DNA of 64,000 bases. Source: Lenzites betulinus (taxonomy: Eukaryota > Basidiomycota > Agaricomycetes > Polyporales > Polyporaceae). A model generated the notes under the pieces. The model saw nothing but the letters and a program-made list of their open reading frames with translations. It was not told where the DNA came from and searched no databases. Shown here one piece after another: positions 3,566-46,300 of the stretch; positions within the stretch are counted from its first letter, which is position 1; every line of letters begins with the position of its first letter. The stretch lies in the NCBI GenBank assembly GCA_022264855.1, contig JABYQU010000009.1, forward strand, positions 124,001 to 188,000, written 5' to 3'. Made by a program: the position numbers and the translations under genes.

Positions 3566-5978
3566 ATGTTCTTCTCCGTCGCCCGGCTGCGACTCGCTCT
3601 TTCCTCCTTCCTTCTCCTCGCTGCCCCCCTCGTCCGCGCTCGCGACAACTCGCTTTGTACGTCCTCCTTCCGCTTACATTCGCCCGGTTTCTAATCCCCT
3701 GCGCAGTCACCTCCTCCGTCACCTATTGCGCTCCCCCAGAGTCCCTTCTCATCGAGCAGTTTGACATTGCATACTTTGCAAAGAACCAGTCCATCGTCTT
3801 CAACGTCTCTGCCGCCAGTGTCGTGCGTATCAATCACTCCACCTACCCGCTCCCTGCATTCCTCACCTTTCCACACAGGTCCCCAACACCAATGTCAACG
3901 CTAACCTCTTCCTCAACGTCTACGGCATACGCCCTATCAACGTCACCCTAGACATCTGCTCCCTCTTTGACGGCGCCCTCTGCCCTCTCCCGCTCTACAA
4001 CTTCACTGGCTCCGACTCGCTCTCCCTCCCAAAGGACTTTGACGTCGCCTCCCAGCTTCCCAATATCGCCTACTACATCCCTGACCTCGAGGCCTACGCC
4101 CAGCTCACCCTCACCGATGTCAAGACCGGCCAAGTCAGAGCCTGCGTCCAGTTCACCCTCTCCAACGGCTGGTCTACCCACCAGCTGGGCGCCGAGTGGG
4201 CCGCCGGCAGCATCGCCCTTCTCGCCCTCACTGCCGCCCTCGTCCAGTCTATTTTCGGCTTCGGTTCTCCTCTGCTCCCCGTTCGCCTCATCGATGTCGT
4301 GTCCCTCTTCCAGACCATCGCGCTCTCTGGCCTCCTTGCGCTCAACTTCCCCTCGCTCTACCGCTCGTTCGCCCTCAACTTCTCCTGGGCTCTCGGGCTA
4401 TTCGAGTCTTCCTCTACCTCGTCCATTCAGACGTCCATCAACCGCATGCGGAGCGCGACTGGCGGCCATCTGTCCGACGAGAGCGGAGATGGTGCCATTT
4501 CGTTCGTTAACCGCAAGCTCAGCCCATACAACTCTGCAAGCTATGTCGCGCCCCAGAGCCTTGTCCAAACCGCGTCCTCTCTCGCGCGCGTCAACCTCGC
4601 CGAGTTTGTGTCGTCCAACGCGTCGTTGCCCGCCTCCCTTCCCAGAACCCAAGTTTTGGTCGGTAGCGATGTCGCCACGGTCACCGAGCAGTCGTCCAAT
4701 GTGCTCGAGGCCGGGTTCCCCATCTACACCAACTCGGTCGGCATTGCAACCGCAAACGCGTTCATGACCGTCTTCTTTGTCGCGCTCATTCTCACCGCCA
4801 TCGTCCTGGGCACGCTCGCCCTCATCTACGGCGTCCTGGTCGCCCTGGAGCGCTCAGAATTCGGTAGGAGACACCCCGGGATCGCCCAGTTCCGCACCAA
4901 CTACCCGTCCTTTGCCAAGGCTTGGGCCATTCGTGGCGCACAGATGCTTTCGCTCCCCATACTCGTCTTCACCTTCTACCAGTGGACGCTGAAGGATTCG
5001 TGGCTCTCAGACCTCCTCTCCGTTATTCTGCTCATCGCGCTGATGGCCATCATCCTCCCTGCGGCGTTTTTCGCCATCCGCTCCTCCGTCCCACGCTCCA
5101 GATGGACAGACATGAAGCCGCCGGCCGCCGTTGCGCCGTTCACCGAGCCGTACCGCGAGAGCAGGACGTACTACGTCATCCCGCTACTCCTCGTCATGGT
5201 CATCAAAGCAATGGTGACCGCCTTTGCCCATGTCCACGGCATGGTCCAAGCCGTGTTTTTCGTCGTTCTGGAGGCGCTCCTGCTGGGCTGCATCATCGTC
5301 CTCAAGCCGTACCCCACTCGCCGAGCAGATGTGCTCGCTGGCTATCTTTGCATCACCCGCCTCGTCTGCAGCGGTCTCATGATCGCGTTCGCCGAAAACC
5401 TCGCGGTGCAGCCTATTCCGCGTGTGGCCATAGGTGCCGTCACCGCGGTCATCTTTTCGATCGCGTGCATAGTCCTGTTCTTCAACCTGCTCGTCAACCT
5501 CGGCCTGTGGCGCCTGGTCAAATACGTGGTGTGCTGCGGGCACCGCGGACGGCGACCTGGCGACACGGAGCTGGCGAGCACCCCTAGCGACTCTTCCATC
5601 GCCGAGAAGGGCGAGGGCCACCGCTACGATGGAGAACAGGAGAAGAAGGATACCGCCACGGTCACCACAGCACCGTCGCAGTACTTCCACCACTCCAGGC
5701 CGGGAAACCCGTCGCCGCCAAGCACAGCGATCTCCATAGAGCCGATGAGCGCGACATCGAGCACAACGCTCGGTGAAACGCTTCCGCGGAGATGGTCGTT
5801 CCAGTATTCGCGGCCGCCATCGGCGGCGACGGACTCGCCGCATTCGCCACCCTACACCACCTACCACAATTCGACAGCGTCGTCGCCTGTGTCCGCCCAA
5901 CGGCACAGCCGACATATCTCTTCGTCGCTCCCTACACCCCTAGAAGAGTATCCTACACCCGAGGCTCGCGCCTTGTAG
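3566..5978 (+). CDS. Fungal TRP-like channel / flavin-carrier (FLC/Pkd2) membrane protein
   Basis: Three exons (3566-3656, 3707-3822, 3879-5978) give 768 aa with consistent phases. The start codon opens a classical signal peptide: a short Arg-containing n-region, then a Leu/Ala core ending near residue 25 before RDNSLF. An ML-like luminal domain follows (about 27-170) with paired Cys and many Asn-Xaa-Ser/Thr sites, for example in VTYCAPPE and LCPLPLYNFTG. The rest is a polytopic TRP domain with about nine hydrophobic spans, beginning around WAAGSIALLALTAAL, and then a polar Ser/Thr/Pro-rich cytosolic tail of about 150 residues. Known relatives act in ER, Golgi or plasma membrane, in FAD or calcium homeostasis and cell-wall integrity. 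This copy's exact substrate cannot be read from sequence. It looks intact. Confidence 0.92.
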
Positions 5979-20552: not shown

Positions 20553-21793
20553 TGTCACACACCAAACCAGTTTGGTACTGGAGCCTGACGGCTAGTGGTA
20601 CAGACAGTGTGTGAACCAAAGGTCATGAACACAGACATACCATCATCCCAAGCATGCACCAGCAGAAGGTTCTAGCAACCACCAGAGAAGAGCAGAACAG
20701 TACAGAACCTAGCGGAATAGTACGGAACCTAGCGGAACAGTACGGAACCCACTAGAACAGTACAGAACATTGCGGAAACCCCCGGAGACACCTGGAGTAG
20801 TCAGAGAACATCCCAGAACCATCTAGAAGATGCTAGCATCAACATAGAACAAGCAGGAATAAAGGAGTAACCACAAGAACAGACTGGAACCAGAGAGAAT
20901 GAGCCAGAACACAGCAGAACATTCTAGAAAGTATGAGAAAGACACGGAACATTCCGAGAGAAGGCGCCGGAAGCTTCTCAACATACCAAGAACTGTCTGG
21001 AAGGATCTATGGAAGTGCCTGGAAGAGTGTGGAATATTCTGGAATATTCTGGAAGGAGTAGGAAAGAGGTAGAAGGATGGAGAAAGTGCTGGGCATGGAT
21101 TCGTCAGCGTAGATTTTGCTTACATATGTATTACCAATCAGCTCCCATGCCCCTTGTCCTCAGGTATAAATACTGGGGTGAGCAAGGCAGGGAGGGAATA
21201 ACACACATTTTCTCAGCTATTTCCTCTTGCCTGCCATGCAAGCCAGCTTGCAGTGGCATAAGCAGTAGCACCAGTAGCACACTCAGCTTAGCAGTCACAT
21301 CAGCCAACTACCCACAGTCATTACCCTTAGTAGCCCACAGATTGAGCTAGATTAGTTGGGATTTGCCGTGAATCTTACGACAACTACTAGCATACGACAT
21401 TGCACGACAGAACATGGATTTGTTAGATTGGTTGGGGTTCACCGGAGCCTTACGACAACCACTAACCTCAGGAGACATAGAGACTCAGACGACCCAGAAC
21501 ACAGAAGACACATGCAAGATATTGCACGGCCACGACCACTCGCAGAATCAGGACACCCTCGCACACACCTACGACACACAGAGACACCGTTATAGTTTCT
21601 ATATCACACCATACCACACATCGCGGACTGTCATACAGGATCACAGCCAGCCCGGCTTAGTCACGAACTCGGCGAGGCCTCTGTTGGAAAAGAAGAAACC
21701 CCACACACTTTGCGGCAGAATCCGGAATCATCTATTACATTAAACCCCTCACCATCTTTATTAATCAATCGATTCCCGGATATTCATCCGACA
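20553..21793 (+). mobile_element. LTR of gypsy family A (probable solo LTR)
   Basis: Starts TGTCACACACCAAACCAG and ends GATATTCATCCGACA: TG...CA termini over 1241 bp. The first 1000 bp recur at 63,042-64,000 with high identity, and the last 70 bp are closely shared with the LTR at 27,692-28,813, so all belong to one clade. The U3 part contains short tandem units (GGAACAGTACGGAACC and variants). A TATAAAT lies at 21,165. The last 4 bases before it and the first 4 after it are both GCGC, a possible but low-complexity duplication. No gag-pol of this subfamily adjoins it, so it is probably solo. Confidence 0.75.
21165..21171 (+). promoter_or_regulatory. TATA box inside LTR family A
   Basis: TATAAAT in the context CAGGTATAAATACTGG, conserved at 63,612-63,618 and, as GGGTATAAATACC, in the LTR at 27.7-28.8 kb. 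Its conservation between divergent LTRs marks the U3/R promoter. Confidence 0.75.
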
Positions 21794-22324: not shown

Positions 22325-22630
22325 GACCAGCACTTCAGCACAGACCTTCATACCCATTGATTCCACCATTTACCCAGCTGCTGCCATCACTTATCATCAC
22401 ATCCATCCCATTTACCAACCCGTGGCCTTATCTATCACTTATCATGAAGAACACTGTATTGGAAAGCAAATTACAAGACATAGAACGAGCAGAAAGACAG
22501 TGCTGCCGGCAGGTCGCTGGAGTACTAAGCAAACAGAGAAAGACAAAGAACACCCGTCAAGAAATCATCCAGCAAATGATCAGAAACACAAGGTCTGCAG
22601 TCTATGCACGGGATCGAGAAGCATGCCGCC

Positions 22631-22769
22631 TGTGAGAGACCGTGCCCAGACAATACCACAATCTAACAACTGGGCCAAAAGGCCACTATGCTGAAGCTAT
22701 CAGCATATTTGTCTGGATCTATATAAGCAGTTCCTATGTCACAACATGCCACTCAGCATGATCGTGACA
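22631..22769. repeat. Left LTR of the TRIM-like element
   Basis: 139 bp, identical to 22997-23135. Identical LTRs imply that insertion was recent relative to the CpG-decayed surroundings. Confidence 0.9.
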
Positions 22770-22996
22770 GTGCCTCCCCTTTTGGCACCAAGCCCTCGAA
22801 GGTGCCAGCCTGACATGTCATACTAAGGTGTGGAAACCCTAGGGCTAGCTGGCCTTCAAGAACCCAGGATTGCTTTTTATAGCAGACCCCCAAAGGTTTC
22901 CCAAGCCTCTGTAAGCCACCAGAACAGGGGCCCTGTGGTGCGGACAGAATGCAACCACCAGGGTTTGAACTGGTGACCTGGGAAGCTTCAGCATAC

Positions 22997-23135
22997 TGTG
23001 AGAGACCGTGCCCAGACAATACCACAATCTAACAACTGGGCCAAAAGGCCACTATGCTGAAGCTATCAGCATATTTGTCTGGATCTATATAAGCAGTTCC
23101 TATGTCACAACATGCCACTCAGCATGATCGTGACA
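22997..23135. repeat. Right LTR of the TRIM-like element
   Basis: 139 bp, identical to 22631-22769, directly followed by the second CCGCC. Confidence 0.9.
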
Positions 23136-23527
23136 CCGCCCGACATTCGGAACCTTGACGGGCCGCAAACGAGGGAGACAGAGCAACTAACATATGTGAT
23201 AACCAAGACATATTGTATCTATAACTGTGGGGCGGCTAGCCTAACTATGTTCACACGCCCTATCAGACACCAAGTAGTGTACATCCACCGCAATGGGAGA
23301 CCTCCGCACGGTGTCCGCACTCAGACACGTACTGGGGCCATCCATTACGATAGAGGGACACACCATGGAGAGCAACAAGGAGTAGCAAAAGACACCACTG
23401 TCATACACAAACACCTATAAGCGCGCACCACAATGGTGCGAGATCAGTGGAGATCCTCGACAATAGCCAAGGCTCCAAGAGATCTCTGATTGTCAATCCT
23501 ACTAGCAAGAAGCGCTAGCTAGCAATG

Positions 23528-28131: not shown

Positions 28132-28813
28132 ACCAGGCTGAGGCAGGCCAGAATGACAGCTTCTTCTTCTCAATGCCTCCCTTGCCAGCTAGTTCACCAA
28201 CTTGCAAACCAAAGCAGCTCACCACCCCTTACCCTCACCTACACATTTTCCATCACCACAGCCTTATATATATATATATTGGTCCATTCAAAGCTCCATC
28301 TGATAGAATTTTGACTAGAATAGTTGGGGTTCACTGTGAACCTTTCGACAACAGCTACTAGCCCACGGGATGACCTCAGCACGCAACACGACACACCACA
28401 GACACTGACTAGACCCACCCGGAACCTTACGATAGCCCGCAGTACCAGAAGACAAAGAGAGACACACCCGTAGCCGCACGAACACCGACCACTGTAGTAT
28501 CAGGAATACACCCACGCACAACGACATACAGCCCCGTACTCAGCCCTACTAACGCAGAGAGGGGAACCTCTGCTCCGACTTTCAGGGCCTCACACTCTAA
28601 AGCCTAGCCGCTGGCTTCTACCACACCCCATCTTAACACACTATCAGTTGTCCAAGGATATCGGCCAGCCTGGCCTAGTCATGAACTCGGCGAAGCCTCT
28701 GTTGGAAAGACAGGAAACCCCACACGCTTTGTGGTAGAATCGGGAATCCCCTCTTCACCACTCACCCCTCAAATTTTACATCAATCAATCGATTCCCAGA
28801 TATTCATCCGACG

Positions 28814-43331: not shown

Positions 43332-46300
43332 ATGCAGGGTCCTGCTCTGCCTGCCTTCCCAATCCCCCCGCTTCAGCTTCAAATCACTCCAGAACCAGCC
43401 CAGACAGTCTGGCGATGCAACTGTGTTAAGTACTGCAAGGGCGTTCTGCGTCAGATCAGCAAGCGCCAGTATCACCGCCATGCAGCAGCACAAACCCATC
43501 CGGAGGACGTCCTCGCACAATTTCAGCCAATTCTACCCGCAGGTGGCCCCCAGCTTGCTCCCTTCGCCCCGGGCCCTCTCATCTTCAATCCACATGCCCG
43601 TGTGCGCGATATGCCCGTAAGTGACCGTGCCTCATAGAGGGCAAACATTAGCTGACATTGCAGCATGTCAGGATGACCCTGACATGCCGGAGCTTGTAGA
43701 TTCCGACTCGGACAACAGTGACGGTGATGAACCAGTCCGCCGTGGTCGAGCCGCCTCTCTGCCCCCTGCTCGTGCCTCTGTGTCTGTCTCCCCTGAGCGT
43801 GATGGCTCTCCGGATGCCCACAACATCTTCTACCCTCCAGGGGTTGGAGATGGCAAGGATGACGGCCCGCGCCCGCAAACCCCTCCGGCAGACCCGGAGT
43901 TTGGTTACACTGAAGAGGTCGGCACACCCCGCGAGAGCCGCCGCAAGGAGGTACGCGAGGCACATGCGTTCATTCGTAGCCTCAAGAGTGCGCGACTCGA
44001 GGACTCCGGGCTGAGCGAAGAGGCCATCGCGCGTATGCTCGCGCCTCGTCGTGACCCCGCCAGCAATGTCATTGCCCATGAGTGGGCTGGTCTGCATATG
44101 TTCTGTGCGCGAGGCGACGCCTCCGAGGAGAACTACGCGGATAATCGAGCAGCTTTCATGGAGCTAACCGACGAGCCAATTCCGACATATGAGCAGGTAA
44201 GTTATTATATTTTCAAATTTAAGGCAGCACTTTAATCAGCAAGCAGGTCAAGCGTCTTGTCTCTGACCTTACGGGAATCGACGCCATCCATACCGACATG
44301 TGCCCTAATACCTGTGTTGCGTATGTGGGACCATTTGCTGCTTATGAGCAATGTCCCTTCTGCGGCGAATCATGCTACAATGTCTGGAAGCTCGTTCAAG
44401 GCAAGCGGGTCCCGCATTGTACCTTCCAGACCTATCCCCTGGGTCCCCAGCTGCAAGCCATGTGGAGCTCCCCCAAGAATGCTGCACTCATGAAACACCA
44501 TGCTCAGGAGACCGCGCGTGTCATCGAGGCCGCCAGGCTCGAACCAGATGCAATCCCCGACTTCAATGATGTCTACTACGGTGAGGCGTACCTCAACGCC
44601 GTGCAGAACACAGACCGCGCACAGGCCATCCACGACGAGGACATGGTGTTGATGTATCTGACTGTTGGTTCTATGTGTGGGTGCTGTTCGACCTTCCACC
44701 TGACCAGCATTACAAGAAACACTTCGTGCTACCTGGCGCAGTTATCGGAGGGCCTCGGAAGCTGAAGAATGTCGACTCGTTCATATTCCCCGGCCTCTAC
44801 CACCTTGCTGCACTTCAGCGCACTGGACTCAGTATTTGGGACGCCTCCGAGGGGCGTCTTTTCACCTCTTACCTCTTCCTCCTACTGGCAACCGCCGACG
44901 GCCCCGGAATGGCGTATCTGAACGGTCTAGTCGGACACCAAGGTGCACATGGCTGCCATCTCTATTGTCCATTCCCTGGACGCAATAAGCCCGGAATGTC
45001 AATGTATTATCCCGCAGCGCGTTGCCCCCTCCCTCGAATTGCCACCGACCATGACAACCTCTCCATTTGGGCAGCTCCAGATCCTATGGCTCCCTCCACG
45101 CGTGACCGCTACGAGGCCAACCTGCGCCTCATTGAAGCGTTGACAAGCAATGCCATTTACGCCCACAACCGCCTTCAGACCGGCATCGCCAAGCCTACCA
45201 TCTTCAGTGGGCTCACTCGTACTTTGGGAGTACCTGATATCTTCGGGGCCGAACTCATGCATCTCATCACACTCAATATCACCGACCTTGTGCTTGGCCT
45301 CCTCCACGGCTCCCTCACGTGCGATGCTCCGGACAACAAGGCCGACTGGACTTGGGCAATTTTTGCAGATAAGGACGTCTGGGTTGCCCATGGCAAGCTC
45401 GTCGCAGAGGCTACGCGCTGCCTGCCCGGGTCGTTCGACCGGCCTCTGAGGAACCCCACCGAGAAAATCTCGAGTGGCTACAAGGCCTGGGAGTACCTTC
45501 TGTATGTATACGGCCTTCTACCCGGTCTACTGAGGGGGATCCAGCAGCCGCTCTACCTCCGTCACTTTTGCAAGCTTGTCTCTGCTGTCCGTACCGTTCT
45601 CCAGCGACGCCTCCCCGCCGACCAGCTTGTTGATGCTCATCGCAACTTCATCGAGTACGCCGATGGTATGGAGTTGCTCTACTACGCCCGTCGTCGTGAG
45701 CGACTGCACTTCCTCCATCAGAGTGTCCATGCCACAACCCACATTGTACCTGAAGTTGCCCGCCTTGGTCCAGGCTCCCTCTACACTCAGTGGACTCTCG
45801 AAAATTATATAGGTAACATAACACGGGAGATTAAACAGCACAGCACGCCCTACGCCAATGTTTCCAAGCGGGCGCTGCGCCGGAGCCAGGTCAACGCTCT
45901 CAAAGCGATGATTCCTGCGTTAGACAACATCCCTCCCCTACCACGCGGCTCTCAGGACCTTGGTGGCGGGTTTACGCTCCTGCATGCTCTTGATACGTCC
46001 TTGCACAGAGTGACACTTGCGGAGGCCGATGCCATCCTTTCCTTCCTTGTGCGTATCGGACACCCTCATCCCGATTGGACACCGCTTGTACGCCGCTGGG
46101 CCCGGCTCAAACTCCCTAATGGGCAGATTAAACGTACAGCCTGGAAGGAATGCCTCTTGGAGACCTGTGGACGCCTTCCCCGGCGTGCTCACATGGTAAA
46201 GGTGTGTCTCATAGTTTGACTCTCTCGGAGGCGCATATGCTAATAGGTTCTGTAGCTGATCGGGAGACCTAGCCGGTTCACGGAGGTCCAGTTCTTCTTT

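Follow-up and report, generated by a model that had tools for sequence, protein, structure and literature searches.

TRIMs are miniature LTR elements, defined by a length under 1 kb and terminal direct repeats of 100-250 bp, and they have been described with primer-binding sites (PBSs) for tRNA (PMC6934838). A self-primed TRIM is discussed there only as a possibility. Most PBSs of the fungal Helenus TRIMs complement the anticodon loops of tRNAs (PMC10886601). In Tf1, the RNA anneals to the PBS through its first 11 nt and is cleaved by RNase H after nt 11 (PMC7175516), and pretzel side duplexes are a further feature of this element (PMC10085805). Our literature searches, which covered titles and the starts of abstracts, with most subscription papers falling outside, returned no description of a self-primed TRIM; they also returned nothing on LTR retrotransposons of Lenzites and no apparently related literature on TRIMs in Polyporales. 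Here we describe an element of Lenzites betulinus that is TRIM-sized and probably self-primed.

The element lies in the window, that is, the whole stretch of 64 kb that was analysed (contig C98:124001-188000 of an assembly of 37.4 Mb in 108 contigs). Comparison of its two LTRs (LTR1, 22631-22769; LTR2, 22997-23135) showed identity at 139/139 positions, with both starting TGTGAG and finishing GTGACA when read on the forward strand. The LTRs enclose an interior of 227 bp (22770-22996), giving a total of 505 bp, and are flanked by a target-site duplication, CCGCC, to which no strand is assigned and whose left and right copies occupy 22626-22630 and 23136-23140. The earlier note on this DNA had claimed this same arrangement of a 139-bp pair with TG...CA ends, a 227-bp interior and a CCGCC duplication, and all of it was confirmed at the exact coordinates. 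A perfect repeat of 139 bp is far beyond chance; among the ungapped direct repeats reported in 12000-40000, none is longer than the LTR pair together with its duplication, and the runner-up measures 66 nt and is 82% identical. The interior, also described in that note as non-coding, proved so as far as tested, since Pfam matched nothing at E<=1 in the sole frame of at least 80 aa across it (90 aa, starting with GTG on the minus strand). The overall size and the 139-bp repeats fall within the range given for TRIMs, and the element further resembles them in its lack of recognisable coding capacity, its target-site duplication and a polypurine tract before the 3' LTR. The TRIM-like anatomy is established, a tRNA PBS excepted.

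The sequence that received the element is itself repetitive, with 631 bp on the left and 665 bp on the right belonging to repeats. When the window flanks are joined without the insert, they align gap-free to three empty copies of this target repeat, all located on contigs other than the element's: C80 and C57 (92% each) and C55 (86%). Each empty site keeps one 5-bp site, which is CCGCC in C80 and C57 and CTGCC in C55. Because the paralogous flanks are contiguous and contain a single 5-bp site, the locus represents a true insertion and not a segmental duplication. Insertion and the LTR-element nature of the insert are thereby established. In C80 and C57 the frame across the insertion site runs open for 258 codons, and in C55 for 111, which bears out the earlier description of a once-open reading frame; that this frame was coding, however, is unproven, because Pfam recognises nothing in the window frames covering it and the peptide predicted from it appears to be of low complexity. 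A further copy of the target repeat, on C19, contains a 2.4-kb insert (G000:C19:234000-236440) about 10 bp or less from the position that corresponds to the TRIM site. Its inverted arms of 646 bp are 88% alike and an 8-bp repeat, GCCCGACC, flanks it, which makes the insert DNA-transposon-like; it was considered as a same-site insertion of the present element and rejected, as the long inverted arms and 8-bp flank repeat differ and no LTR pair was seen. In the window, 21637-21792 and 28655-28812 form an 80% direct repeat, 7 kb apart, that brackets degenerate reverse transcriptase/RNase H frames; these are probably the LTR remnants of an old gypsy element that received the TRIM. The window also holds a 514-aa frame with a match to Transposase_21 (tnp2 family) at 44675-46219 and a TRP-channel frame at 4299-5978 whose product shares 99% identity with a Lenzites betulinus protein.

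The LTR occurs at five places in the assembly, namely the element pair and one copy each on C55 (99%), C34 (96%) and C80 (87%). The outcome that the earlier note would have taken as a sign of local duplication, in which all LTR copies lie in the same flanks, is absent: the three further copies reside on three other contigs, and, beyond the LTR, their junctions have no more than about 7 bp in common with the element locus. Other repeats are common to these loci and the element locus, at unrelated positions. The C55 LTR, which differs at 2/139 positions, has GGGGG on each side, and the C80 LTR has TGGTG on both sides in element orientation, provided that the LTR is taken 2 nt shorter; no target duplication was seen in the flanks of the C34 LTR. 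At C34:117004-117046, the likeness to the element continues a few bases beyond the LTR end toward the PBS, and this copy may be a truncated element and not a solo LTR. In element orientation, the three recognisable duplications are G-rich (GGCGG at 22626-22630, GGGGG at C55:173389 and TGGTG at C80:61846; n=3). For two of the three further LTR copies, those on C55 and C80, a copy of the target repeat is found no more than about 20 kb away (C55:156031-173527 and C80:53070-61980); the immediate flanks of these LTRs nonetheless differ.

In its apparent orientation the element is read from the minus strand, with LTR2 as the 5' LTR and LTR1 as the 3' LTR. In this orientation, a polypurine tract of 11 purines, AAAAGGGGAGG (22773-22783, minus), is located 3 nt from the downstream LTR. 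An 11-purine run was present within 18 nt of 98/18226 random points, and no purine run longer than 6 was found in the interior in plus orientation. The TATA motifs count against the minus reading: the plus strand has a perfect TATATAAG (0 mismatches), whereas the TATA-like TATATAGA of the minus strand (23084-23091) has 1 mismatch to the consensus TATAWAWR. In addition, the plus-orientation start of the interior has a 9-nt complement in the LTR (5/2000 shuffles). The plus-strand orientation, which was considered for its perfect TATA and this complement, was rejected because it offers no purine tract and because the complement is located upstream of the plus TATA.

Read on the minus strand, the interior contains at nt 2-13 a perfect complement to nt 72-83 of the LTR. 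This 12-nt complement was equalled by 0/2000 dinucleotide shuffles of the LTR and by 1/3000 random window sites. The interior partner, TATGCTGAAGCT (22984-22995, minus), is 1 nt from the 5' LTR and constitutes the proposed self-primed PBS, while the LTR partner, AGCTTCAGCATA (23053-23064, minus), is the proposed self-primer and starts 27 nt downstream of the first base of TATATAGA. Transcription is expected to start about 27 nt past a TATA box; the predicted RNA 5' end is 23064 on the minus strand, and its sequence is complementary to the PBS. The duplex of primer and PBS has an energy of -18.2 kcal/mol, with 0/1000 shuffles as good. In the minimum-energy fold of the RNA from the predicted 5' end (z -2.33; 3/200 shuffles fold equally well), nt 1-12 are paired with the PBS. 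Side duplexes of the Tf1 pretzel type were no better than shuffles in three tests (398, 260 and 493 of 1000), and the primer-to-PBS signature was found nowhere else in the 37.4 Mb (control, 0). Of the priming modes considered, self-priming has the best support, although it is inferred from this single full-length copy. In the three other LTR copies, a 55-nt LTR core comprising the primer and an A-box-like motif shows 4/165 differences versus 26/252 elsewhere (Fisher p 0.0017), or versus 22/248 (p 0.007) without four terminal C80 positions that are possibly flank, in a comparison whose core was picked by eye after inspection of the alignment and whose LTR copies share history. One of the four core changes, at position 82 in C80, falls inside the primer.

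We favour, as the likely explanation, a non-autonomous, TRIM-sized LTR retrotransposon that sits in an old repeat, is transcribed on the minus strand and would prime itself, with reverse transcriptase and RNase H acting in trans. Minus-strand transcription would start about 27 nt after the TATA-like box, and nt 1-12 of the RNA would anneal to the 12-nt site in the interior next to the 5' LTR. A self-priming chromovirus of the Tf1/sushi type is the most likely source of the reverse transcriptase and RNase H, which would act in trans. RNase H would cut the RNA after about nt 12, and the resulting fragment would serve as the primer, with the 11-purine tract as the predicted start of plus-strand synthesis. 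The partner's integrase would subsequently insert the copy and give rise to the 5-bp duplication. Finally, LTR-LTR recombination could eliminate elements and leave solo LTRs behind.

An ordinary tRNA-primed TRIM, in either orientation, would have its PBS match a tRNA 3' end or, as in Helenus, an anticodon half, and the self-complement would then be due to chance or be a by-product of an LTR palindrome. The published TRIM and Helenus PBSs introduced above follow this pattern (PMC6934838; PMC10886601), the LTR itself holds a palindrome of the same motif within a 22-mer, and the perfect TATA is on the plus strand. However, 24 distinct tRNAs with 14 anticodon labels, other isotypes being outside the set, yielded no primer site; these tRNAs came from 30 of 65 listed matches, for which the best 63 of 759 candidates were scored. 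Among them, complementarity to tRNA 3' ends reached at best 11/18 (minus) and 10/18 (plus), and the best complement scores were matched by 174/500 (minus) and 400/500 (plus) shuffles. The self-complement, by contrast, is positioned exactly where a PBS belongs and at the TATA spacing, and tRNA priming is on balance rather unlikely. A captured tRNA gene or a tRNA 3'-end PBS was rejected on the poor 3'-end match with the 24 tRNAs and on database results, as Rfam gave no match up to E=1 in 22400-23400 and ARAGORN detected no tRNA anywhere in the 64-kb window. Transcription by pol III would be compatible with the self-primed explanation: the element would be a tRNA-like relative of Helenus/TRIMp3, also self-priming, with its promoter split over the LTR/interior junction. 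The A-box-like TGGCCCAGTTGT in the 5' LTR (23032-23043, minus; 1 mismatch to TRGCNNAGTNGG) and the B-box-like AGTTCAAACCC in the interior (22961-22971, minus; 1 mismatch to GGTTCRANNCC) are 72 nt apart and form the sole such pair on both strands of the 64-kb window, at <=1 mismatch each and a distance of 25-100 nt, with consensus sequences and windows chosen after inspection. The ordered two-piece similarity to tRNA-Ile has a score of 26, which was reached by 0/599 and 0/4000 random window 130-mers and by 1/2000 shuffles; backward-read tRNAs give 17. Moreover, the A-like box follows the predicted RNA start at a distance of 21 nt, and each LTR has a single TTTT, 18 nt after that start; pol III termination at this TTTT would give the transcript a terminal repeat of ~22 nt. 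On the other hand, the halves are weaker singly (10/300 shuffles for the LTR, 1/300 for interior 1-70 and 37/300 for the whole interior), the Rfam and ARAGORN results are negative, the TTTT of the 5' LTR would require read-through, and the B-like box is outside the LTR, unlike in Helenus. The A- and B-box halves that straddle the LTR/interior junction bear a weak likeness to tRNA, and pol III transcription is a speculative reading that we regard as improbable. Its most specific form, in which pol III starts the RNA of a self-primed TRIM at the self-primer and stops at the TTTT of the 3' LTR, is slightly less probable still. If true, one tRNA-derived module would define where the RNA begins, its terminal repeat and the primer for reverse transcription, and the element would represent a minimal self-primed retroelement, natural in origin, 505 bp long and free of any borrowed tRNA.

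The element could also be an internally deleted relic of a full-length LTR element rather than a member of an independently mobile family. There are four LTR loci in all and no second interior copy was found in the assembly, and this explanation can do without a surviving full-length relative if that relative was lost. Both edges, however, retain intact PBS- and polypurine-tract-like sites; the empty sites document an insertion here and are compatible with a 505-bp insertion or with the later deletion of a longer form. We consider such an origin unlikely. A local segmental duplication of the 139-bp sequence, which the finding of just one two-LTR copy in the assembly might suggest, is refuted by the paralogous empty sites together with the 5-bp duplication, and the dispersed LTR copies with differing immediate flanks also speak against it; this alternative was rejected on the empty sites, and its probability is negligible.

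Mobility in trans, as suggested in the earlier note, is plausible. The genome-wide search put forward in the earlier note showed that the LTR is dispersed but yielded no full-length relative sharing the LTR or the primer-binding region. Specifically, the LTR matched only the five known places at E<=10, the interior matched only itself at E<=0.001, and the LTR end joined to the PBS recovered only the element itself and the known LTR copies. With <=3 mismatches, a 20-mer spanning the LTR/PBS junction was found in the element and at three places with 3 mismatches (backward control, 0; chance estimate, about 2). One of these, G000:C31:442790-442809, keeps a 13-nt core, AGTATGCTGAAGC, and could be a chance match or a distant PBS junction. 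In sum, no autonomous partner sharing the LTR, interior or primer/PBS was found in the assembly; because these searches pass over very common words and assign scores to the top candidates alone, a partner may have escaped them. Ty3 elements with a chromodomain and long open frames are frequent in this genome. The best 150 of 168 candidates in the reverse-transcriptase search were scored and matched, and 52 chromodomains were among the matches listed. In 22 pairs, a reverse transcriptase and a chromodomain lie on the same contig within 3.2 kb, with a frame of equal reported length, and these chromodomain-paired reverse transcriptases are possible helpers. The identity of the LTRs had also been read as a sign of youth. 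The identity itself stands, yet it argues weakly for a young age because only 139 bp are compared: zero differences correspond to a 95% upper bound of about 10 My at 1.05e-9 substitutions per site per year (PMC5689174).

If the element is a self-primed TRIM, the entire cis-acting machinery of self-priming would fit into about 500 bp and be open to parasitism in trans, and the self-priming reading predicts that the autonomous lineage that mobilises it consists of self-priming chromoviruses. The element is like other TRIMs in its 505 bp, 139-bp terminal repeats, lack of recognisable coding, 5-bp duplication, purine tract and solo LTRs, and differs from them in that its PBS complements its own LTR, with no tRNA-complementary PBS among the 24 tRNAs. 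It is reminiscent of the self-primed Tf1/sushi chromoviruses (Tf1 and Tj1; Tcn1 is proposed), in that a PBS beside the 5' LTR complements the predicted RNA 5' end; the pairing segment is the first 11 nt in Tf1 (PMC7175516) and would be 12 nt here. It departs from this group in having no genes, chromovirus gag-pol included, and in side duplexes that are not above chance. With Helenus/TRIMp3, as set out in the portions of PMC10886601 used, it has in common the TRIM size, the 5-bp duplication in a basidiomycete, an LTR motif resembling box A and solo LTRs. Both boxes lie within the Helenus LTR, whereas the A-like box is in the LTR and the B-like box in the interior here. According to the same portions of that study, by Kojima, the tRNA-like LTR sequence and the PBS of Helenus show no complementarity, whereas the LTR and PBS of the present element are complementary. 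The TRIMs of Boletales, found in three of five genomes in the Coniophora olivacea study (PMC5689174), are likened by description only, with structure and priming absent from the parts of that article used; they resemble the element described here in being basidiomycete and non-coding.
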